Made by a program: the position numbers and the translations under genes
Notes under the pieces: generated by a model
What the model was told of the DNA's origin: nothing
The model's database searches: none
The model's input: only the letters and a program-made list of their open reading frames with translations
Shown: in pieces, positions 51,846 through 61,806 of the stretch
Position numbering within the stretch: the stretch's first letter is position 1
How the letters are laid out: every line of letters starts with the position of its first letter
NCBI RefSeq assembly: GCF_013034685.1
Contig: NZ_WQGO01000003.1
Location: 62,001 to 126,000, forward strand
Source of the DNA: Ruegeria lacuscaerulensis
GTDB taxonomy: Bacteria > Pseudomonadota > Alphaproteobacteria > Rhodobacterales > Rhodobacteraceae
DNA length: 64,000 nucleotides
Reading direction: 5' to 3'

Positions 51846-52838
51846 TTAGCGCAGCCGCTGCCCATCAGCATTGAACCGATACGCTTTTTCGGGCGCGAAC
51901 CCAAGACGCAGGTCTTGGCCTTCGGATATTGCGTGTTGCCCGAACAAGCGCGCCGTCACCGAATGGTTCTGAACGGTCGCAATGACGTTGGTATCACCGC
52001 CCAGCTTTTCGACATGGCTGACCTGCGCTGACAGTGGGCCGTCGTCAGATAGGAATAGGTCTTCGGGGCGAATACCAAGGGTGTCTGACCCCTGATCCAG
52101 CAGGCTTTCGGGCAGGAAGTTCATCGAAGGAGATCCAAGGAATCCCGCAACAAACTGGTTGGCGGGGTTGTTATACAGCTCCATCGGTGAGCCGATCTGT
52201 TCCACCCGGCCATCGCGCAGAACTACGATCTTGTCGGCCAGTGTCATCGCCTCGGTCTGGTCGTGGGTGACATAGATCATCGAGGCATCCAGTGCCCGGT
52301 GAAGGTTTGCAATCTCAATACGTGTGTTCATCCGCAGCGCCGCGTCGAGGTTCGAAAGCGGTTCGTCAAACAGAAACAGTTTCGGCTCACGCACGATAGC
52401 CCGCCCGATGGCGACGCGTTGGCGCTGACCGCCGGACAGCTCAGATGGATAGCGGTCCAGATATTCCTCAAGGTTCAGCATCCGGCTGGCGCTGGCGACG
52501 CGCTCCTCGATCACCGCTTTGGGCTGCTTCTCTTGTTTCAGCGCCAGTGTCATGTTCCCGCGCACGTTCAGATGGGGATAGAGCGCATAGCTTTGGAATA
52601 CCATCGCGATGCCACGTTTCGACGGCGGCACCAGATTGACGGTCTGGCCGTCGATATTGATCTCACCCGAGGACGCATCCTCCAACCCTGCGATCACCCG
52701 CAGCAGGGTGGATTTGCCACAGCCCGAGGGGCCGACGAAAACGACAAACTCGCCTTCTTCGACCTCAAGCGAGATGTCTTTGAGGACATGCACCTCGCCA
52801 AAGGATTTGTTCACATTGGTCAAGGTCAGAGCAGTCAT
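51846..52838 (-). CDS. Sugar ABC transporter ATPase (UgpC/MalK type)
   Basis: A 330-residue ATPase of the CUT1 carbohydrate class. Walker A is GPSGCGKSTLLRVIAG, the signature LSGGQRQRVAIGRAIV, Walker B LFLFDEPLSNLD; residues 230-330 form the OB-fold regulatory domain (GIRPEDLFLSDDGPL). It is the last gene of the leftward amino-sugar operon and overlaps the dehydrogenase by four bases. Confidence 0.95.
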   Translation of the reverse strand: MTALTLTNVNKSFGEVHVLKDISLEVEEGEFVVFVGPSGCGKSTLLRVIAGLEDASSGEINIDGQTVNLVPPSKRGIAMVFQSYALYPHLNVRGNMTLALKQEKQPKAVIEERVASASRMLNLEEYLDRYPSELSGGQRQRVAIGRAIVREPKLFLFDEPLSNLDAALRMNTRIEIANLHRALDASMIYVTHDQTEAMTLADKIVVLRDGRVEQIGSPMELYNNPANQFVAGFLGSPSMNFLPESLLDQGSDTLGIRPEDLFLSDDGPLSAQVSHVEKLGGDTNVIATVQNHSVTARLFGQHAISEGQDLRLGFAPEKAYRFNADGQRLR

Positions 52839-53869
52839 GTTGCGGACTCCTTAAGCGAAACGGGCTGGCCGGTGCGGATGCTTTCATCTGCGGCCAGACA
52901 AATGGCGAGGGATTGGACGGCGTCATTCATATGGCGCGTCAGGTCGATATCGTCAGCAATGGCGCGCAGCATATACGCCTGCTCGGCGTCACAAAGCTCC
53001 TGATGGCCGGGCTCATTGGGCATCTCAACCGTACGGTCACCGCCCGAAGTGTGGATCAGCAGACCACCAACCTTGGTATGGCCGTCGATATCCGCCGACG
53101 CGCCCTTGTTGCCATCGGTGATCGAGACCGAGCCATTGGGCGAGACAATGTCTTTCACGAAGAACGCGGTTTCGGACATCATCGGGCCCCACCCGGCCTC
53201 ATACCAGCCGACCGAGCCGTCCTCGAAAATCACCTGAAATTGGCCGTAATTGTACATGTCCTCGGCGATTTCGTCGGACAGGCGCAGGCCCATGCCATGC
53301 ACGCGGACGGGCTGCGCATCGGTGATCTGGCACATCACATCCACATAATGCACACCACAATCCACGATGGGCGAGGTCGTCTGCATCAGCGCCTTATGTG
53401 TCTCCCACTCAGCGCCTGAGGATTGCTGGTTCAGGTTCAGGCGGAACACATACGGCCCGCCCAGGTCCCGCGCCTCGGCAATCAGGCGCATCCAAGAGGG
53501 GTGGTGGCGCAGGATATAGCCCACGACCAGTTTGCGGTTCAGGCGAGTGGCGGTTTCGACCACGCGCCGTGCATCGGCCACGTTGGTGGCCAGCGGCTTT
53601 TCGACAAACACATGCGCGCCAGCCTCCATTGCGGCGCAGGCGAAATCGGCGTGGCTGTCGGAATAGGTGGCGACGACCACCAAATCGGGTTTGGTCTCGG
53701 CCAGCGCGGTGTGGAAATCCGAATAGGCGGGGTATTGGCCCAGCTCGGGGTGATCCACGTGACCCGAGCGGTTCACCAGCCCCACGATCTGCGCGTCCGC
53801 GTGGTTGTGATGAGCCAGCGCGTGGCTGAGACCCATATTGCCAAGGCCAGCGATCAGAACTTTGGTCAT
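52835..53869 (-). CDS. Gfo/Idh/MocA family oxidoreductase
   Basis: A 344-residue NAD(P)-dependent dehydrogenase. The Rossmann motif GLGNMGLSHALAHHNHADAQ lies at residues 8-27; HVFVEKPLATNVADARRVVE holds the family EKP, and VDCGVHYVDVMC the probable catalytic His region. Relatives oxidise sugars, including anhydrosugars, at C2 or C3. It overlaps both neighbours (permease and ATPase) by four bases, so it is fully part of the transport operon and probably handles the imported sugar. Confidence 0.92.
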   Translation of the reverse strand: MTKVLIAGLGNMGLSHALAHHNHADAQIVGLVNRSGHVDHPELGQYPAYSDFHTALAETKPDLVVVATYSDSHADFACAAMEAGAHVFVEKPLATNVADARRVVETATRLNRKLVVGYILRHHPSWMRLIAEARDLGGPYVFRLNLNQQSSGAEWETHKALMQTTSPIVDCGVHYVDVMCQITDAQPVRVHGMGLRLSDEIAEDMYNYGQFQVIFEDGSVGWYEAGWGPMMSETAFFVKDIVSPNGSVSITDGNKGASADIDGHTKVGGLLIHTSGGDRTVEMPNEPGHQELCDAEQAYMLRAIADDIDLTRHMNDAVQSLAICLAADESIRTGQPVSLKESAT

Positions 53870-54705
53870 TTGACAGCTCCCGAAGTGATGCCGCGGATCA
53901 GTTGGCGCGAGAAGATGACATACAGAACCAGCACTGGCAGGATCGCCATCGACAGGGCCGACAGAACCGCGTTCCAGTCGGTGACGAACTGTCCGATAAA
54001 GACCTGACTGCCCAGCGTGAGCGTCTTGGTTTCTTCAGCCGGGGCGAGGATCAGCGGGAACCACAGGTCATTCCAGATCGGGATCATGTTGAACACGGCC
54101 ACGGTCGCCATCGCGGGCCTGACCAGAGGCAGAACCAGCCGGAAAAAGATCGTATATTCCGACAGCCCGTCGATACGGCCCGCGTTTTTCAGATCATCAC
54201 TGACCTGTCGCATGAACTCCGACAGGATGAACACGGCCAACGGCAGCCCTTGCGCGGTGTAAACCAGGATCAGCGCCCAAAGCGTGTTCACCAGCCCGGT
54301 GGCCACCATCATCTCAAGGATCGCCACAGTGCCGATGCGTATCGGGATCATGATCCCCAGCGCCAGATACAGCCCCATCAGCAGGTTGCCCTTGAACTGA
54401 TATTCCGACAGCGCATAGGCCGCCATGGCCCCGAACAGCAAGATGAAAAACAGCGATGCGACGGTGACGATCATAGAGTTCTGGAAATAAAGGAAGAAAT
54501 CCCCCTGCTTCATCACCGTCTCATATCCGATCATCGAGAAACTGTCGGCATTCGGTAGCGCCAGCGGTTCCCGAAAGATCGCGCGGCGGGATTTGAAGCT
54601 GTTGATCAGGATCACAAAGACCGGGAACAGGGCGATCAGCGTGTAAAGGATCAGCGCCCCGTGCATCGCGGCGGTATTCAGCGGGTTATGGCGTGCTTTG
54701 TTCAT
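53866..54705 (-). CDS. Sugar ABC transporter permease (MalG type)
   Basis: A 279-residue inner-membrane permease with six helices. The EAA loop, which docks to the ATPase, is DDLKNAGRIDGLSEYTIFFRLVLPLVRPA by its core AGRIDGLSEYTIFFRLVLP. ATG at 54705 was chosen because the frame upstream reads through the other permease gene in a wrong frame. Ten bases separate it from the first permease gene. Confidence 0.94.
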   Translation of the reverse strand: MNKARHNPLNTAAMHGALILYTLIALFPVFVILINSFKSRRAIFREPLALPNADSFSMIGYETVMKQGDFFLYFQNSMIVTVASLFFILLFGAMAAYALSEYQFKGNLLMGLYLALGIMIPIRIGTVAILEMMVATGLVNTLWALILVYTAQGLPLAVFILSEFMRQVSDDLKNAGRIDGLSEYTIFFRLVLPLVRPAMATVAVFNMIPIWNDLWFPLILAPAEETKTLTLGSQVFIGQFVTDWNAVLSALSMAILPVLVLYVIFSRQLIRGITSGAVK

Positions 54706-54715
54706 CGCGGGACCC

Positions 54716-55630
54716 TCACAGTTGATACCGACGCATCCGGGTCTGGATGCCAAAAAGGTAGATGCAAACGCCCACAAGGATGATCGCGAACATGGCCCCG
54801 GCAATGGCCGATCCCATATGCGGGTCGCCCAGCTGCAGCTGGAAGCCAAAGAAGGTGCGGTACATGAAGGTGCCCAGAATATCGGTTGAGAAATCCGGCC
54901 CCGCCAGCGCGCCTTGGGCGGCATAGATCAGGTCGAACGCGTTGAAGTTGCCCACAAAGGTCAGGATCGAGATGATCCCGATCGAGGGCAGGATCAGCGG
55001 CAGCTTGATCTTCCAGAAGGCCGAGGCCCCGGTGATGCCGTCAATCTCTCCGGCCTCAAGGATTTCCTCGGGGATGGTCAGCAGGGCGGCATAGATCAGC
55101 ATCATCGGAATGCCCACGAATTGCCAGACCGAGATCAGCGCTAGCGTGGTGAGTGCATATTCCTCTTTCCCCAACCACGGCGCGAACAGGGATTTCAGGC
55201 CCACAGCGTCCAGCATCGAGGGCGCGATGCCCCAGATCGGCGACAGGATCAGTTTCCACGCAAAGCCCACGATCACGAAACTCAGGATCGTCGGGATGAA
55301 GATTGCAGACCGATAGAGCGCCGAGAACCGCAGGCGCGGGTGGCTGAGCAGGGCTGCCAGTGCGATCCCGATGGGGTTTTGAACAAGCATATGGATCAGG
55401 AAGAACCAGAAGTTGTTGCCCAAAGCGTTCCAGAACTGCTCGGACCAGATGGGATCGAAAAACAGCGTTTGAAAGTTCTGCAAGCCCACGAACACGCGGC
55501 TCTGATCCACTTCGGAATAGAGCGCCAGCCGCAGCGTGTTGAACAGCGGGAAGATCATCACCGCCGTATAGACCAGCACAGCAGGGGCCAGAAACACGAC
55601 GATATGCCAGCGGAAGCGGGGGCGGTTCAT
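54716..55630 (-). CDS. Sugar ABC transporter permease (MalF type)
   Basis: A 304-residue permease with six helices and the EAA motif EILEAGEIDGITGASAFWKIKLPLILP by its core EAGEIDGITGASAFWKIKLP. Starts with MNRPRFRWHIVVFLAPAVLV, typical of CUT1 permeases. It is separated from the binding-protein gene by 66 bases containing a perfect stem-loop. Confidence 0.94.
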   Translation of the reverse strand: MNRPRFRWHIVVFLAPAVLVYTAVMIFPLFNTLRLALYSEVDQSRVFVGLQNFQTLFFDPIWSEQFWNALGNNFWFFLIHMLVQNPIGIALAALLSHPRLRFSALYRSAIFIPTILSFVIVGFAWKLILSPIWGIAPSMLDAVGLKSLFAPWLGKEEYALTTLALISVWQFVGIPMMLIYAALLTIPEEILEAGEIDGITGASAFWKIKLPLILPSIGIISILTFVGNFNAFDLIYAAQGALAGPDFSTDILGTFMYRTFFGFQLQLGDPHMGSAIAGAMFAIILVGVCIYLFGIQTRMRRYQL

Positions 55631-55659
55631 GGGTCAGCTTTCAAAGGGGTGTCAGGGGG

Positions 55660-55687
55660 TACTCGGGCGGGATGAGCCGCCCGAGTA
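55660..55687 (-). repeat. Stem-loop between binding-protein and permease genes
   Basis: TACTCGGGCGG and CCGCCCGAGTA form a perfect 11-base stem around a six-base loop (gatgag). It lies in the only wide gap inside the operon, right after the binding-protein gene, where such structures protect the upstream mRNA and lower permease expression. Confidence 0.75.
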
Positions 55688-55696
55688 TGGGTCAGT

Positions 55697-56950
55697 TTAC
55701 TGGTGCGGCGCGTACCAGGAGGCGAGGCCTTCCTGCAACTCGGCGCCCAGTTCTTCGGGCGATTTGGCGCCCTTGATGGCGGCGACCGATGCGCCCCAGG
55801 TCTCATTCTCGAGGTTCGGCGTGCCGCGCGACAGGATTTGGTAGGTCGAGCGGATGGTCGATTCACACTCATCACGCCAGCCGACGATTTCCTTGGCTAG
55901 CGGGTCTTGCAGCTCGACCGGGGTGCTGGACAGCGGGAAAAAGCCGGGCAGGGCGTTGCCGAAGATTTCCGCGAACTCGGGGCTTGCGACCCAGGCCAGG
56001 AACGTCTCAGCCGCTTCGGGGTTCTCGGTGGCGGCGTTCATGCCGATGCCGATATCGGTGTGATCCGAGATATAGCAAGTGTCGCCCGCGTTGCGGACCG
56101 GCGGCTTGAATGCGCCCATCTGGAAATCGGCCTGCGTGTTAAAACCCGAAATCTCCCACGAACCGGCGGGATAAATCGCGGCGCGGCCTAGCGTGAAAAT
56201 GTTCTGGCTGTCGGGATAGGTCTGTGCCTCATACCCGTCGCCCATATACTCGCCCCAACGGGCCAGTGTTGCGTAAGGTGCGGTCCAGGCCTCATCCGTC
56301 AGCTTCTGCTCACCTTTGATAAGCGCTTGACGGCCTTCTTCACCTTTCCAGTAGTTCGGGCCGATGTTGTTGTAACCCATTGTGGCGGCTTCCCACTGGT
56401 CATTGGTGCCCATCGCGATCGGGATATAGGTGCCGTCTTCCTTGATCTTGTCCAGCGCGGCAAAGAACTCATCCTCGGTGGTGGGCACGTCGATGCCTAG
56501 CTCGTTGAAGGCGTCCTTGTTGTAGATGAAGCCGTGGATCACCGAGGCCATCGGAACGCAGAAGCTGACCGCGCCGTCATCGGTCTGCCACGCGGATTTG
56601 GCGACGTCCGAAAAGTTGCTCATGGCCTCAACGCCCGAAAGGTCCGTCAGGTGTCCTGCCTCATACAACGCCAGCGAAGCATCGAAGGGGCGACAAGTGA
56701 TCAGATCACCGGCCGAGCCCGCATCCAGTTTCGAGTTCAGAACAGCGTTGTATTCGGCGGGCGCCGATGGGGTGAACTGGACCTTGATGCCGGGGTTGGC
56801 GGCCTCGAATGCGGGGATGATCTGGTCTTGCCACAGGGTCAGGTCATCATTGCGCCAGCTTTCGATGGTGATCGTCACGTCTTCGGCCAAGGCCGATGTT
56901 GCCACCAAGGTTGTGCCCAGCAGGGCCAGTTTCAGGCTTTTGTGTTTCAT
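55697..56950 (-). CDS. Sugar ABC transporter substrate-binding protein
   Basis: A 417-residue periplasmic protein of solute-binding family 1. A signal peptide (MKHKSLKLALLGTTLVATSALA) is cut near residue 22. Mature part: VTITIESWRNDDLTLWQDQI, FTPSAPAEYNAVLNSKLDAG, and GSWEISGFNTQADFQMGAF, all typical of the family. ATG at 56950 has GGAG six bases upstream, better than ATG 56962. It follows murQ by 17 bases. The ligand is inferred from neighbours to be an amino sugar, perhaps MurNAc or GlcNAc. Confidence 0.93.
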   Translation of the reverse strand: MKHKSLKLALLGTTLVATSALAEDVTITIESWRNDDLTLWQDQIIPAFEAANPGIKVQFTPSAPAEYNAVLNSKLDAGSAGDLITCRPFDASLALYEAGHLTDLSGVEAMSNFSDVAKSAWQTDDGAVSFCVPMASVIHGFIYNKDAFNELGIDVPTTEDEFFAALDKIKEDGTYIPIAMGTNDQWEAATMGYNNIGPNYWKGEEGRQALIKGEQKLTDEAWTAPYATLARWGEYMGDGYEAQTYPDSQNIFTLGRAAIYPAGSWEISGFNTQADFQMGAFKPPVRNAGDTCYISDHTDIGIGMNAATENPEAAETFLAWVASPEFAEIFGNALPGFFPLSSTPVELQDPLAKEIVGWRDECESTIRSTYQILSRGTPNLENETWGASVAAIKGAKSPEELGAELQEGLASWYAPHQ

Positions 56951-56967
56951 TTCAGTCTCCAAGTTGG

Positions 56968-57861
56968 TTAGCGGTTGTTATCTGTTGTAAGAACGGTGCT
57001 GAGGTTTCCGCCCGAGTTGCCCAGGTGGGTCATGGCCTCGGGCAATGACAGGCCGAGCGCCGCGATCAGGATCGCTGGTTTGACCTCACCCTTGGCTGTG
57101 TCCAGCGCGGATTGCGCGGCAGCGGTGTCTACATTTGCGATACGCGCTACGATCCCTGCGGCGCGGGCGCGCAACTTGTCATTGTCGGCGCGCAGGTTGA
57201 CCATCATGCCGCCATGCACATGCCCCAACTCTAGCGCCATAAGGGATGACAGCATGTTCAGGGCTATCTTCTGCGCCGTACCAGCCCCCATGCGGGTCGA
57301 GCCCGAGATCAACTCCGGCGGCGTGGCCAGCAGGATCGGGATGTCCGCATTCAGCAGCAGGGGGCTGCCTGCATTGTTGGCGATGCCGATCACCTTGGCA
57401 CCTTTGGACTGTGCGATGGTGCTGGCGATTAGGGTGTAGGGTGTCGATCCACTGGCCGACACAGCGATGACAGTGTCATGCGGGCGCAAGTCTTGCAACG
57501 CGTCGGCAAGGCCCGCATCCGCGTCTTCTGCTGCGCCGGGCATTTCAACCCCGGTGGGCAGGCCTCCTGCCATGTGAATGCGCAACCGCGCGGGTGAGAT
57601 CGAAAACGTGCCGCCCAGCTCTTGGGCATCTGCGGCGGCCATCAATCCTGACGAGCCGGCCGCCACATAGTGCAGCACCCCGTCCGTACGCAAAGTCTCT
57701 GCCATTGCCAGCGCAGCCTGCGCGATGCTGTCGACGGCTCCCTCAATCGCCTGCGCCGCAGCGATTTGACCGGCGGCCAAGGCGCGGGCGGAGCCTGCCA
57801 GATCGCTCGGGTCAAGTCGTGCGGCATCAGTGTGCAGTTGTTCAGTCGACGGCAGCGTCAA
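56968..57861 (-). CDS. murQ: N-acetylmuramic acid 6-phosphate etherase
   Basis: A 297-residue SIS-fold enzyme that splits the lactyl ether of MurNAc-6-phosphate, giving GlcNAc-6-phosphate and lactate. Motifs: VAAGSSGLMAAADAQELGGT, AGAAEDADAGLADA, VSASGSTPYTLIA, PPELISGSTRMGAGTAQKI, and HVHGGMMVNLRADNDKL. TTG at 57861 was chosen over ATG 57906 since GGGGG lies six bases before it and the protein then has the usual length; the longer N-terminus would be translated from the operator. First gene of the leftward operon. Confidence 0.92.
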   Translation of the reverse strand: MTLPSTEQLHTDAARLDPSDLAGSARALAAGQIAAAQAIEGAVDSIAQAALAMAETLRTDGVLHYVAAGSSGLMAAADAQELGGTFSISPARLRIHMAGGLPTGVEMPGAAEDADAGLADALQDLRPHDTVIAVSASGSTPYTLIASTIAQSKGAKVIGIANNAGSPLLLNADIPILLATPPELISGSTRMGAGTAQKIALNMLSSLMALELGHVHGGMMVNLRADNDKLRARAAGIVARIANVDTAAAQSALDTAKGEVKPAILIAALGLSLPEAMTHLGNSGGNLSTVLTTDNNR

Positions 57862-57887
57862 GAGAATCCCCCTTACAGTTCCTTTAC

Positions 57888-57904
57888 AATACCTATCTAA
57901 TACC
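57888..57904 (-). promoter_or_regulatory. Operator of the murQ operon: two GGTATT repeats
   Basis: On the minus strand GGTATT occurs at 57904-57899 and again at 57893-57888, an exact 11-base period. TGGACA and TATTGT, 16 bases apart, form a possible promoter overlapping it. The same element pair, mirror-oriented, lies before the kinase gene. Likely bound by the GntR regulator of the locus (inference). Confidence 0.65.
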
Positions 57905-58008
57905 ACCTGTCCATAACTTTCTTATTGCGACCGAGATGAACGATTTTTTCGCATAAATCTTTCTAAAATTGCTGATCATAGCAGGTTTAATCTTTTCTGA
58001 TGGCAAAA

Positions 58009-58025
58009 GGTATTATAATGGTATT
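58009..58025 (+). promoter_or_regulatory. Operator/promoter of the kinase operon: two GGTATT repeats with TATAAT
   Basis: GGTATT at 58009-58014 and 58020-58025 repeat with an 11-base period; between them is a perfect TATAAT (58014-58019). The kinase ATG is at 58029, only nine bases after TATAAT, and no Shine-Dalgarno sequence intervenes, so the transcript would be nearly or fully leaderless. Repressor binding here would cover the -10 element. Confidence 0.65.
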
Positions 58026-58028
58026 GTC

Positions 58029-58904
58029 ATGAGTGAGTCTGAAAACCACGCAGTTTTGGCCGTTGATGGCGGTGGAACCCGATGCCGGGTTGCCTGTGAT
58101 GTGGATGGTGAAGTCCATGCGGTCGAAACAGGTGCGGCCAATGTCTCAACCGATTTTGAGGGTGGTGCCGACCAGATCAGGACGGGCGTCGCGCGTTTGG
58201 CCGAACGTCTCGGACGGCCCGCCGCCGACCTGTTCGATTGGCCCGCTTTCGTAGGCTTGGCCGGAGTGACTGGGGATGCGGTAGCTGGGCGCTTGCAGGC
58301 TGTTCTGAACTTGACGAATGCCCGGGTGGAAGATGATCGACCGGCCGCCGTCCGAGGGGCCTTGGGCGCGACAGACGGCCTTGTCGCGCATTGCGGCACG
58401 GGCTCATTCCTTGCGCTCCAGACTCGTGGTCGCATGCGGTTTGCTGGGGGATGGGGGTCAGTCCTTGGAGATGAGGCCTCGGCCCAATGGGTCGGACGTC
58501 GCGCCTTGGCCGAAGCGTTGAATGTTGCAGATGGGGTTCAGGAAAGCTCGGGCCTGACCCGGGCCCTGTCTGATCGGTTGGGTGGTACCGCAGGCATTGT
58601 TGCATTTGCAGGCCAAGCGTCGCCGGGAGAGTTTGGCACGTTGGCACCGCAGGTTACGTCGGCGGCGGTCGATGGAGATATCGTTGCCCGGAAAGTCCTG
58701 CAAACAGGTGCGGATTACCTTACGGATATGGCCGCCCGTTTGGGTTGGAAACCCGGTCTGACGCTATGTCTGACCGGGGGAATTGCGCCGCACTACGCCG
58801 ACTACCTGCCCGGCGAAATGCAAGAGGCAATCCGTCCGCCGCAGGGGGAACCGCTGGCAGGTGCGTTGGCTTTGGCAAAGGAGGTGGCAGATGAGCATCG
58901 CTGA
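58029..58904 (+). CDS. BadF/BadG-type sugar kinase (GlcNAc/MurNAc kinase-like)
   Basis: A 291-residue ASKHA-fold ATPase. Phosphate-1 motif is LAVDGGGTRCRVA near residue 10; VAHCGTGSFLALQ and GGWGSVLGDEASAQWVGRRAL are phosphate-2 type; CLTGGIAPHYADYLP is the adenosine motif. Relatives phosphorylate GlcNAc, glucosamine or, as for MurK of Clostridium, MurNAc and GlcNAc, which would fit MurQ here. The start ATG 58029 has no ribosome site. It overlaps the GntR gene by 14 bases. Confidence 0.88.
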   Translation: MSESENHAVLAVDGGGTRCRVACDVDGEVHAVETGAANVSTDFEGGADQIRTGVARLAERLGRPAADLFDWPAFVGLAGVTGDAVAGRLQAVLNLTNARVEDDRPAAVRGALGATDGLVAHCGTGSFLALQTRGRMRFAGGWGSVLGDEASAQWVGRRALAEALNVADGVQESSGLTRALSDRLGGTAGIVAFAGQASPGEFGTLAPQVTSAAVDGDIVARKVLQTGADYLTDMAARLGWKPGLTLCLTGGIAPHYADYLPGEMQEAIRPPQGEPLAGALALAKEVADEHR

Positions 58905-59640
58905 ATTCCTGCGCGCCGATGCATGGCTAAGCCCTGAAAACGGCCCTCGATACGTACAGCTGCGCCGCCGGTTGCAAGAGGGGATCGACACCGGTGTGCT
59001 GGCCCCCAATGCGTCGCTGCCGTCAGAACGGGAATTGGTGGAAATCACTGACCTGTCCCGCGTCACCGTACGCAAAGCTATCCAGGAGCTGGTGCAAGAA
59101 GGCGTGATCGAACAGCGTCAGGGGTCGGGCTCATTCATCCGCGAGCGCGTGCCTCGGGTCGAGCAATCGCTGACCCATCTGACATCATTCACCGAAGATA
59201 TGTCGAGCCGGGGGATGCAGACCACCTCTAAATGGCTGGAACGTGGCGTGTTCGCCGCAACACCACACGAGGTGGCCGCGCTGAACCTGTCGGACGGCGC
59301 GCAAATCGCCCGTATCTATCGTCTGCGCGAGGCAGATGGCCGCCCGCTGGCGTTGGAAAAAGCGGCCTTGCCCTTGGACATCCTGCCGAACCCGATCGAG
59401 GTGACGACCTCGCTCTACGAGGTGCTGGATGGGTTGGGTCATCGTCCGGTGCGGGCGGTTCAGAAGATCTCGGCGCTTAATCTGGCAGCGCGCGAGGCCG
59501 AGTTGCTGGACGTACCTGAAGGGGCGGCGGGGCTGAATATCGAACGTCTCTCATTTCTCAAAAACGGTCGGGTCGCAGAGCTGACCCGTTCGCTCTATCG
59601 CGGTGACGCCTATGATTTCGTCGCCGAGCTACGGCTATAA
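58891..59640 (+). CDS. GntR family regulator (HutC/NagR type)
   Basis: A 249-residue repressor. The N-terminal winged helix reads LPSERELVEITDLSRVTVRKAIQELVQEGVIEQRQGSGSFI by its parts LPSERELVEITDLSRVTVRK and QRQGSGSF; the UTRA ligand-binding domain follows (about 85-245), with RIYRLREADGRPLALEKA. AAAGGAGGT lies six bases before ATG 58891. It likely senses a sugar phosphate of this pathway and binds the GGTATT pairs on both sides of the divergent gap. Confidence 0.93.
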   Translation: MSIAEFLRADAWLSPENGPRYVQLRRRLQEGIDTGVLAPNASLPSERELVEITDLSRVTVRKAIQELVQEGVIEQRQGSGSFIRERVPRVEQSLTHLTSFTEDMSSRGMQTTSKWLERGVFAATPHEVAALNLSDGAQIARIYRLREADGRPLALEKAALPLDILPNPIEVTTSLYEVLDGLGHRPVRAVQKISALNLAAREAELLDVPEGAAGLNIERLSFLKNGRVAELTRSLYRGDAYDFVAELRL

Positions 59641-59659: not shown

Positions 59660-60688
59660 ATGTCCGAACATACATCCAAGATGCGTCAGGAAATTCTGGA
59701 AATTCCCGATGCGGTCGACCGGCTGCTGGGCAGTGGCGCGGCCAATATTCAAAACGCCGCTGGGCTGGTCCGCGACGCCGATCCGCGGTTCCTGATCACC
59801 GTGGCGCGCGGGTCGTCGGACCATGCGTGCAGCTATCTGAAATACGCCAGTGAGTTGCTGCTTGGTCTGCCTGTGGCCTCGGTCGGACCGTCGGTCAGTT
59901 CAATCTACGGGGCCGAACTGATGGCGCGGGGGGCGGTCTGTGTGTCCGTGTCGCAGTCCGGCCAAAGCCCTGACATCGTGGGGTTGACGCGGTCCTTGCG
60001 GTCTTCGGGCGCTGTGGCACTGGCGATCACAAACAATTCAACCTCGCGTCTGGCGGAAACCGCTAATGCGGTGCTGCCGCTGCACGCCGGTCCTGAACTG
60101 AGCGTTGCGGCGACCAAGACCTTCGTAACCTCGCTTGTCGCGGGTCTGTGGATGCTGGCCGAGGTCAAAGGGGATGCCGACTTGCTGGCGGCTATCCGGG
60201 CTCTGCCCGCCCAATTGGACCGGGCAGCCCGATGCGACTGGTCCGCAGCGGCGTCTGCGATCACGGGGCGGTCGCTGTTCACGCTGGGCCGGGGGCCGTC
60301 CTTTGCGGTGTCGGGCGAGGCGGCGTTAAAGATCAAGGAGACCTGCCAGATTCACGCTGAAAGCTATTCGGCTGCCGAAGTGCTGCACGGCCCCGTCTCG
60401 ATCGTTGAAGAGGGGTTCCCTGCAATCATTTTCGCTGCTCAGGATGCGGCGGAGGAGACAACCGCACAGGCTGCTGATGCTTTGGCTGAAAAAGGCGCGG
60501 TGGTTTTTGCGACGACGGATCGGGTCACGCGAGCGCAGTCTTTGCCGGTCGAGCGCACGGATCACTGGATCACCGATCCGATCACGGCGATCACCGCCTT
60601 CTACAGCATGGTCGAATCGGTTGCCAGTATGCGAGGAATCGACCCTGACGCGCCACGCCACCTCAAGAAAGTGACCGAGACGGTATGA
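59660..60688 (+). CDS. SIS-domain glucosamine-6-phosphate deaminase (NagB-II type)
   Basis: A 342-residue protein with two SIS domains, like the isomerase half of GlmS. It would turn glucosamine-6-phosphate into fructose-6-phosphate and ammonia. Motifs: VARGSSDHACSYLKYASELL, SVSQSGQSPDIV, PELSVAATKTFVTSLVA, SLFTLGRGPSFAVSGEAALKIKE by its part LFTLGRGPSFAVSGEAALKI, and the C-terminal DPDAPRHLKKVTETV. No glutaminase domain is present. ATG at 59660 has AAAGG five bases upstream. It overlaps nagA by four bases. Confidence 0.92.
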   Translation: MSEHTSKMRQEILEIPDAVDRLLGSGAANIQNAAGLVRDADPRFLITVARGSSDHACSYLKYASELLLGLPVASVGPSVSSIYGAELMARGAVCVSVSQSGQSPDIVGLTRSLRSSGAVALAITNNSTSRLAETANAVLPLHAGPELSVAATKTFVTSLVAGLWMLAEVKGDADLLAAIRALPAQLDRAARCDWSAAASAITGRSLFTLGRGPSFAVSGEAALKIKETCQIHAESYSAAEVLHGPVSIVEEGFPAIIFAAQDAAEETTAQAADALAEKGAVVFATTDRVTRAQSLPVERTDHWITDPITAITAFYSMVESVASMRGIDPDAPRHLKKVTETV

Positions 60689-61806
60689 CAACGAACAGGG
60701 TGATCTTTCGAAACGGGGAAATCTTTGATGGTAAGCGGTTGCTGTATGATCATGCGTTGGTCTTTGACGGCGATGCGACCGGGAGGATTGTGTCCGATGC
60801 GGATATAGCGACCGGTGACTATGTCGATCTGAACGGAGACATCGTCAGCCCCGGTTATGTGGACTTGCAGGTGAATGGTGGCGATGGGGTCATGCTGAAT
60901 GACGCCCCTTCGGTGGAGACGATCCGGCGCATCGCGCAGGCCCATCGCCGGATGGGGGTCGCCGCGCTGCTGCCGACTTTGATCACGGATACGGCCGATA
61001 AGACCCGTGCCGCGATTGATGCTGCCATTCACGCCGTCAATGAGGGTGTGCCGGGCGTCGCCGGGTTACATCTGGAGGGGCCCCACCTGTCGGTTGCACG
61101 CAAAGGGGCGCATGATGGCGATCTGATCTGTCCGATGTCTGATGCAGACCTCGCTGCCTTGATAGAGGCGGCGGGTCATCTGCCCTGTCTCAAAGTGACT
61201 GTGGCGCCCGAATCGGTGTCAGAGCAGCAGGTTCGCGCGCTAACCGATGCGGGTGTACTGGTATCGTTGGGGCACACTGATGCGGATTTCGCCACCTGCC
61301 AGCGCTATGCCGCCGCAGGTGCGCGATGTGTGACCCATCTGTTCAACGCCATGAGCCAGTTGGGCAACCGCGAACCCGGATTGGTCGGCGCGGCGCTGTC
61401 GAATGGTGGGTTTTCGGCCGGGCTGATTGCTGATGGCATCCATGTCCACCCGCAGGTCATGCGGGCGGCGTGGGCGGCTAAAACCGGACCGGGGCAAATC
61501 TATCTGGTCAGCGACGCGATGGCGGTTGCAGGAACGGATAAATCCGAGTTTCGTCTGGAAGGTCGCAGGATCACCCGCACTGACGGGCGGCTGACGCTGG
61601 AAGACGGGACGCTGGCTGGCGCGGATTTGGATTTGACGACTGCCATCCGGGTGCTGGTCACGCAAGTGGGCGTGCCTTTGCCTGCGGCGCTGGCCGCTGC
61701 CACCACCTATCCTGCACAGTTGATCGGGCGAATGCCGGGCGCTGCCATCACCCGCGACAGCATGATCCGCATCAGCGGAACGCTCGACAAGTGCGCGTGG
61801 CTGTAG
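60685..61806 (+). CDS. nagA: N-acetylglucosamine-6-phosphate deacetylase
   Basis: A 373-residue amidohydrolase removing acetate from GlcNAc-6-phosphate. Seen: YVDLQVNGGDGVML, GLHLEGPHLSVARKGAH with the metal-binding Glu and His, VSLGHTDADFATC, CVTHLFNAMSQLGNREPG, and LVSDAMAVAGT with the catalytic Asp. Coupled to the deaminase gene through ATGA. Last gene of the rightward operon, followed by a tRNA gene. Confidence 0.96.
   Translation: MTTNRVIFRNGEIFDGKRLLYDHALVFDGDATGRIVSDADIATGDYVDLNGDIVSPGYVDLQVNGGDGVMLNDAPSVETIRRIAQAHRRMGVAALLPTLITDTADKTRAAIDAAIHAVNEGVPGVAGLHLEGPHLSVARKGAHDGDLICPMSDADLAALIEAAGHLPCLKVTVAPESVSEQQVRALTDAGVLVSLGHTDADFATCQRYAAAGARCVTHLFNAMSQLGNREPGLVGAALSNGGFSAGLIADGIHVHPQVMRAAWAAKTGPGQIYLVSDAMAVAGTDKSEFRLEGRRITRTDGRLTLEDGTLAGADLDLTTAIRVLVTQVGVPLPAALAAATTYPAQLIGRMPGAAITRDSMIRISGTLDKCAWL

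Follow-up and report, generated by a model that had tools for sequence, protein, structure and literature searches.

Do the two tandem GGTATT sites in the amino-sugar locus of Ruegeria lacuscaerulensis act separately, each on its own promoter, or together across the DNA between them? A sequence-only reading of the window (the whole 64,000-nucleotide stretch of DNA that we analyzed) had described two GGTATT pairs with 11-base spacing, in opposite orientation and about 105 bases apart. This description was confirmed: exact GGTATT-N5-GGTATT pairs are present at 57888-57904 on the reverse strand (GGTATTAGATAGGTATT, operator 1) and at 58009-58025 on the forward strand (GGTATTATAATGGTATT, operator 2), each with a repeat unit of 11 bp, and the operators are separated by a gap of 104 bp (start-to-start distance 121 bp). 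The window contains 12 matches to the GGTATT pair at up to two mismatches, compared with an average of 1.6 across 100 shuffled versions. No other exact pairs exist in the whole 4.6-Mb genome. The genome-wide search for further boxes used a one-mismatch pattern and returned 10 further sites, none of which reached 10 bits when the operator matrix (built from the sites of relatives, with the window's own sites among them) was applied to the 3-kb stretch around each of these 10.

Tandem operators between divergent amino-sugar genes

The features of the locus, with the evidence for each, are as follows.

52835 to 56962, reverse strand: downstream of murQ, a Gfo/Idh oxidoreductase and the binding protein and two permeases of an ABC sugar transporter
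56968 to 57861, reverse strand: murQ-like N-acetylmuramic acid 6-phosphate etherase (PRK05441 subfamily model above cut-off; putative TTG start at 57861)
57886 to 57891, reverse strand: putative murQ -10 element TATTGT, sharing bases with the second repeat (conserved TATNNT)
57888 to 57904, reverse strand: operator 1, murQ side, tandem NagQ-type box (exact match; 27.4 bits; kept in relatives)
57905 to 58008, no strand: 104-bp spacer, the proposed loop DNA, whose AT-rich steps recur every ~10.5 bp and keep phase with the two operators (AT power, phase scores, population profile)
57908 to 57913, reverse strand: putative murQ -35 element TGGACA (46 distinct murQ-side operators have a conserved TWGACA with 16 bp between it and the downstream TATNNT)
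58009 to 58025, forward strand: operator 2, nagK side, tandem NagQ-type box (exact match; 36.1 bits; kept in relatives)
58011 to 58016, forward strand: putative nagK -10 element TATTAT, sharing bases with the first repeat (conservation of T7 and A8)
58029 to 58904, forward strand: BadF/NagK-like N-acetylglucosamine kinase (PF01869 above cut-off, NF046058 below cut-off; ATG 3 nt past operator 2)
58891 to 59640, forward strand: GntR/HutC (UTRA) regulator, likely a NagQ-type repressor (PF07702 and PF00392 above cut-off; YvoA/NagR and DasR the best solved relatives)
59660 to 60688, forward strand: NagB-II/SIS-type glucosamine-6-phosphate deaminase (NF046059 below cut-off; putative start)
60685 to 61806, forward strand: nagA, N-acetylglucosamine-6-phosphate deacetylase (TIGR00221 above cut-off)

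The operators lie between the murQ-like and nagK-like genes, and the latter is followed by gntR, the NagB-II-type gene and nagA; on the other side, the binding protein and permeases occur in identical order in many relatives. NagQ, a GntR regulator of the HutC subfamily known from alpha-, beta- and some gammaproteobacteria, is described as having operators of direct TGGTATT repeats at N-acetylglucosamine genes (PMC4494728, PMC5343134), motifs that PMC5343134 terms tandem. The operator type found here is already known, as the tandem TGGTATT "NagQ box" of GntR/HutC regulators. The earlier remark that direct-repeat operators are unusual for GntR proteins is correct as far as it goes, but such operators had been described for NagQ (PMC4494728, PMC5343134). 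The protein encoded at 58891-59640 contains the GntR winged helix-turn-helix and UTRA domains, direct TGGTATT repeats are present, and genes for N-acetylglucosamine use are nearby. On the basis of this domain type, box and gene context, the protein is likely to be a NagQ-type repressor. Its binding to the GGTATT repeats is a prediction well supported by conservation and by the published NagQ motifs.

In an alignment, the window's GntR protein retained Arg38 and Arg48, which read guanines in NagR, as well as Arg133 and Arg135, which bind phosphate in NagR; the latter pair would fit, as a suggestion only, release of the box by an amino-sugar phosphate. NagR/YvoA and DasR, the closest solved structures, share the two guanine-reading arginines. 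The dre sites of NagR are inverted repeats with half-sites six bases apart, whereas the boxes in the window are direct repeats without an inverted partner, and in the aligned sites the dre-type pattern GG-N6-CC was not found, the CC positions (8 and 9) being nearly always A or T. A hidden inverted half-site was also rejected, as no conserved ACC follows the GGTATT boxes in the aligned operators, and each operator is therefore a plain direct repeat.

Comparison with relatives showed that each operator sits in its own putative promoter. On the murQ side, a conserved TWGACA-N16-TATNNT places the first box within the spacer of the promoter and the second box over its -10 element. On the nagK side, T at operator position 7 and A at position 8 were far more conserved than on the murQ side. 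The ATG lies 2-4 nt past the second nagK-side box in 90 of 134 loci and immediately after it in 1; no ATG occurs within the searched stretch (up to 23 nt) past this box in the other 43. A -10 element over the first box together with so close an ATG would make the nagK message leaderless or nearly so. The mirror placement of the operators would follow from the orientation of each box along its own divergent promoter.

Conservation of the repeats beside the same locus in relatives had been named as a check on the sequence-only reading, and it was observed. A match to the GntR protein (E 1e-40) was present in 48 of 149 family genomes (50 matches, own genome counted), and both operators were present in 32 of the 35 scored loci, being absent as a pair in three (L059, L083, L084); the 15 unscored loci are those with neither murQ nor the ABC binding-protein gene located in the stretch. 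The window's GntR protein is about 92% identical to the GntR encoded on several Ruegeria contigs. A consensus of (A/T)GGTATT-N5-GGTAT(T/C), with an 11-bp repeat, was obtained from 46 distinct murQ-side and 48 distinct nagK-side sites, which had been selected by means of their GGTAT pairs. A class-wide pattern search of 385 genomes gave matches in four, all from the window's own family. The pattern scan of contigs yielded at least 119 stretches, and those from Bacteroidales, Prolixibacteraceae, Sphingomonas, Oleiagrimonas, Oceanospirillaceae and others were excluded where the sites had no match to murQ, nagK or gntR up to 300 bp away.

Several other loci drew attention during these searches. 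A paralogous GntR group (L045, L049, L052-L057; ~50% identical) adjoins another transporter and was excluded from the distance statistics. Part of its members combine a GGTATT-N5-GGTAG direct-repeat box with a GGTAT-N9-ATACC palindrome, the palindrome on the gntR side and the box on the other; both sites were present, 101-102 bp apart, in 4 of 8 loci. Metagenome-assembled contigs of Bacteroidales/Prevotellaceae (L132, L144, L145, L174, L222) showed mirror pairs separated by 92 bp, likewise lacking a match to murQ, nagK or gntR up to 300 bp away; in L132, L144, L174 and L222, the four inspected, the pairs take the form of arrays of ~11-bp GGTATTATAAT-like repeats. In Prolixibacteraceae (L155, L178, L181, L188, L193, L208, L211), mirror arrays of GGTATGACAGT-like 11-mers surround AATTCG-rich DNA, the array sequences having been inspected for L155, L181, L193 and L211. 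UBA6029, of the same family, has several array copies, perhaps of a mobile or repeat element.

Operator distance and helical phase

Across the family, a strict double operator was found in 46 of 394 genomes (47 pairs), using a search pattern that covers distances of about 88-148 bp. The distances fell at 91-94, 101-104, 111-114 and 121-124 bp, with no intermediates among these four clusters, and then at 130, 133, 134 and 145 bp. These 47 pairs exclude G105:C4, which had no neighbor match, and one reading each of the triple-box sites in G158 and G250, of which the longer reading was used in the smooth-null test and the shorter in the period and bootstrap estimates. The best period was 10.32 bp (resultant R 0.84; bootstrap 9.98-10.54), and the best of 5000 smooth null samples reached R 0.56. 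A second sample of 32 loci, chosen by protein and not selected by operator (L059, L083 and L084 were removed by name), had distances of 82, 90-92, 101-104, 111-113, 121-123, 145, 166 and 189 bp and gave R 0.83 at 10.5 bp and 0.86 at its best period of 10.70 bp.

We then placed 134 loci with both operators and differing spacers on a MurQ plus NagK tree. This set resulted from 208 loci by skipping 53 that had no murQ or divergent partner in the stretch, which left 155, and by removing 19 duplicate spacers and L083 and L084, which are without two operators. Some of the skipped loci hold real pairs (for example L101, 101 bp; L130, 112 bp; L131, 102 bp; L148, 145 bp; L152, 90 bp; L186, 113 bp; L216, 113 bp). 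L101 and L130 are two double-operator regions on one contig of the same genome (G231). By parsimony, the distance class changed 37 times on the tree. The 26 tree-independent pairs, defined as sharing no branch and differing by at least 4 bp, differed by 8-12 bp in 20 cases, by 20-23 bp in 5 and by 53 bp in 1, and never by 4-7 or 13-19 bp. Their mean cosine was 0.79 at 10.5 bp (V z 5.7), and none of 100,000 jittered sets was as good, with the limit that these pairs alone barely distinguish a period of 10.5 bp from one of 11.0 bp (0.74). Additionally, when the phase was fixed on the first set, 53 held-out loci outside Rhizobiales, partly close relatives of that set, gave a mean cosine of 0.74 (z 7.6).

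Outside Rhizobiales, the distances cluster at 71, 81-82, 90-94, 100-104, 111-115, 121-124, 133-135 and 144-145 bp, and those falling outside the clusters are 130, 136, 166 and 189 bp, of which the 130-bp and 189-bp cases miss the grid by about 3 bp or more. The 36 Rhizobiales loci have a nearly constant distance, mostly 135-138 bp (102 and 114 bp also occur), which departs from the grid of the other loci by about a quarter turn (mean cosine -0.03 at 10.35 bp). The best period for all 134 loci, within the range 9.5-11.5 bp, was 11.0 bp (R 0.73), a value probably caused by the pull of the Rhizobiales. A plasmid search, in which 15 loci were examined from 25 listed of 343 matching records, gave two candidate sites of at least 6 bits in 12 loci, several with one site below 12 bits, at distances of 144, 137, 81, 131, 136, 91, 147, 112, 71, 136, 136 and 137 bp. 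Among these were Ruegeria sp. TM1040 (144 bp), Ruegeria sp. B32 (112 bp), Paracoccus (81 and 91 bp, the 91-bp pair being weak) and Sagittula (71 bp, second site 11.5 bits). Rhizobium leguminosarum, at 131 bp versus 137 bp in Sinorhizobium meliloti (L260, L263), lies about half a turn off its relatives; in its stretch, murQ, nagB and nagA are unannotated, the plasmid gene table being incomplete. Three Azospirillum loci (L261, L266, L271) have murQ beside a related GntR gene and had no operator pair at 6 bits or more. At L261, one site of 15.7 bits stands alone, flanked by a SIS-domain gene and ptsG.

The helical-phase rule was thus shown, by comparison of sequences, to hold for the window's family and for relatives outside Rhizobiales; the Rhizobiales loci speak neither way.

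An AT pattern in register with both operators

The DNA between the operators was compared in the same manner. In the spacer of the window, AT power at 10.5 bp exceeded that of 99.6% of same-length stretches of its own locus, and the phase scores were 2.6 and 3.0. Across relatives, 105 spacers had a mean of 4.6 versus 2.4 for 57 non-coding control stretches (Mann-Whitney P 1.1e-8), with only 35% of these spacers above the 95th percentile of the controls. When 95 spacers were each compared with their own locus, the median percentile was 0.956 and 53% exceeded the 95th, and the pattern was missing in some, the 15 lowest lying at the 41st-69th percentile.

When spacers were aligned on either operator, the AT fraction oscillated from about 0.3 to 0.9 every 10.3-10.5 bp. 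After pruning of similar spacers and exclusion of the 135-138-bp group, the AT amplitude was 0.129 for 82 spacers anchored on operator 2 (maximum 0.037 in 5000 rotations) and 0.113 for 67 anchored on operator 1 (maximum 0.045 in 5000 rotations). The steps AA/TT, AT and TA shared their peaks, and the peaks of GG/CC, GC and CG were displaced from these by half a turn, an antiphase of the kind seen in wrapping DNA. Among the 98 loci outside the 135-138-bp group, scarcely any base of the spacer was conserved besides the -35 regions. The phase score was positive in 116 of 121 paired spacers relative to operator 2 and in 91 of 105 relative to operator 1; largely these spacers had also served to fit the phase. 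Together with the distances, these comparisons showed that operator distance evolves almost only by whole helical turns and that the AT steps of the spacer are in register with both operators.

The Rhizobiales-type spacers (135-138 bp) had weaker mean scores of 1.1 and 0.4, and the 14 that remained in a pruned group peaked about -65 and -54.5 from either end, their best period being 9.8-10.0 bp. In two orthologous loci without a strong second operator, the sole controls of this kind, the array was absent (scores -0.5 and -1.7); one of them, L084, has a weak candidate site at 87 bp, which misses the grid by half a turn. In the paralogous direct-repeat loci, 5 of 5 phase scores were positive (one of them 0.18), and a second site was found in 4 of the 5.

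Strong intrinsic curvature was rejected as a property of these spacers, since a dinucleotide-wedge model gave 47.7 degrees compared with 43.2 degrees for shuffled spacers, and because of this small extra bend we limit our claim to directional bendability. By extrapolation of the pattern into the operators, the major groove would face inward at positions 3.4 and 13.8 of operator 2 and 4.4 and 14.8 of operator 1, within one to two bases of the repeat centers at 2.5 and 13.5. On this extrapolation, AT-rich minor grooves that point to the inside of a bend would bring the major grooves of the GGTATT boxes to the inside as well.

A putative repressor loop and its alternatives

We judge it probable that the repressor encoded at 58891-59640 uses the two sites as its NagQ-type tandem operators and that these operators, as a helically phased pair, close a DNA loop. 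Looping between the operators had been raised in the sequence-only reading without evidence; it is now favored by two lines of comparative support, the helical quantization of operator distance and the phase-locked AT/GC pattern of the spacer. Two operator-type sites flank the spacer, presumably bound by one and the same repressor, and phase dependence was seen in its evolutionary form, outside Rhizobiales. In the model that we propose, repressors on operator 1 and operator 2 would touch, or one dimer would bridge both, and this contact would close a loop of roughly 70-190 bp, with the AT/GC pattern easing the bending of the spacer and the repressor-binding faces turned inward. The loop would silence the genes for murQ and the ABC transporter jointly with nagK-gntR-nagB-nagA, until glucosamine-6-phosphate or N-acetylglucosamine-6-phosphate freed the repressor and opened it, as suggested by NagR (PMC4333415). 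A repressor inside a short loop would account jointly for the spacing, the spacer pattern and the mirror symmetry.

Helical phasing alone leaves the loop-closing protein unnamed. One arrangement, which we regard as rather doubtful, is that each NagQ dimer spans the two operators, with one DNA-binding domain on each, so that two dimers staple the promoters together. If true, this would explain direct repeats without an inverted partner, the mirror symmetry, the phasing and the dyad-symmetric, nucleosome-like bending code. It would also remove the puzzle of a symmetric dimer reading direct repeats, and binding and looping would be one act, with the loop inherent in the operator design. Alternatively, several dimers may occupy one operator, as is known for NanR of Escherichia coli (PMC8012715), a GntR protein on the near-identical direct repeats (GGTATA)3, to which three dimers bind. 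NanR differs in belonging to the FadR subfamily and in having its three repeats at one operator, and a mirror-operator loop is not mentioned in the available part of that account (PMC8012715).

The phased array might instead be common to RNA polymerase at both promoters, as a UP element or curved DNA, with the operators in phase by way of their promoters and with no contact between repressors. Promoters are known to be activated by AT arrays upstream of them, the array here comes as close as a turn or two to each promoter, and A-rich positions lie directly upstream of the murQ -35 element. However, the AT peaks fall at about -47, -57 and -67 from the putative start sites, approximately half a turn from the adenines contacted by the alpha subunit in the rrnB P1 UP element, which are described at -41 to -43 (PMC4390567); a UP element would have its A-rich minor groove at about these positions and again one turn farther upstream. 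The array was also missing in the two orthologous loci without a strong second operator, whereas 116 of 121 paired spacers had a positive score. Its phase and its absence at these loci (two only, and with start sites that are themselves predicted) weaken this explanation, which we consider unlikely.

Less probable still is that the operators are independent, each covering its own -10 element, and that helical distances were inherited or arose by slippage of the 11-bp repeat unit. Each operator does overlap its own putative -10 element, and published work treats pairs of operators that lie farther apart in longer intergenic regions as independent (PMC4494728). Against this, phase was kept through 26 tree-independent changes, the spacer pattern is locked to both operators, and the bootstrap period of 10.0-10.5 bp is not the 11 bp of slippage, a value that the 26 pairs alone would allow. 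Least probable of all, and by our estimate very improbable, is that the operators are phased not to each other but to a nucleoid-associated or other protein by which the spacer is bound or wrapped; the nucleosome-like AT/GC pattern would match the preference of a wrapping protein, but apart from the AT/GC alternation, the middle of the spacer has no conserved sequence element in the 98 loci outside the 135-138-bp group.

The repressor loop that we favor has relatives among known systems. The genes nagE and nagB are divergent in E. coli. There, the amino-sugar repressor NagC needs two sites and binds cooperatively by means of DNA looping (PMC5401889). NagC is an unrelated protein of the ROK family (PMC5343134), whereas the repressor here belongs to the GntR/HutC group and the evidence is evolutionary only. 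The MocR-type proteins GabR and TauR are also GntR proteins with direct repeats on one DNA face and proposed looping (PMC5320631), and differ in having an aminotransferase-like sensor domain and a spacing of two or three turns between the direct repeats of a single operator. NagQ itself is described as a HutC-subfamily GntR regulator beside N-acetylglucosamine genes with direct TGGTATT repeats, as here; this literature, in the portions available, covers motif and regulon and not phased mirror operators or a phased spacer (PMC4494728, PMC5343134). PMC4494728 compares operator distances in divergent operons and, in its available portion, gives no helical period. Helical phasing or looping by NagQ was absent among the literature matches listed, which include few subscription journals. 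The NagQ-box type is known, and the helically phased pairing of its operators appears to be new.

If the loop is true, it would be a second independent solution beside NagC looping at nagE-nagB, and a motif from comparative genomics would become a predicted looping switch. The 26 independent spacing differences are evolutionary evidence for selection on helical phase and on bendability between the operators, with the base sequence left largely free. Distance-variable operator pairs have been read as independent (PMC4494728); a helical-phase test would sort out those that are not, and it is applicable to any regulon.
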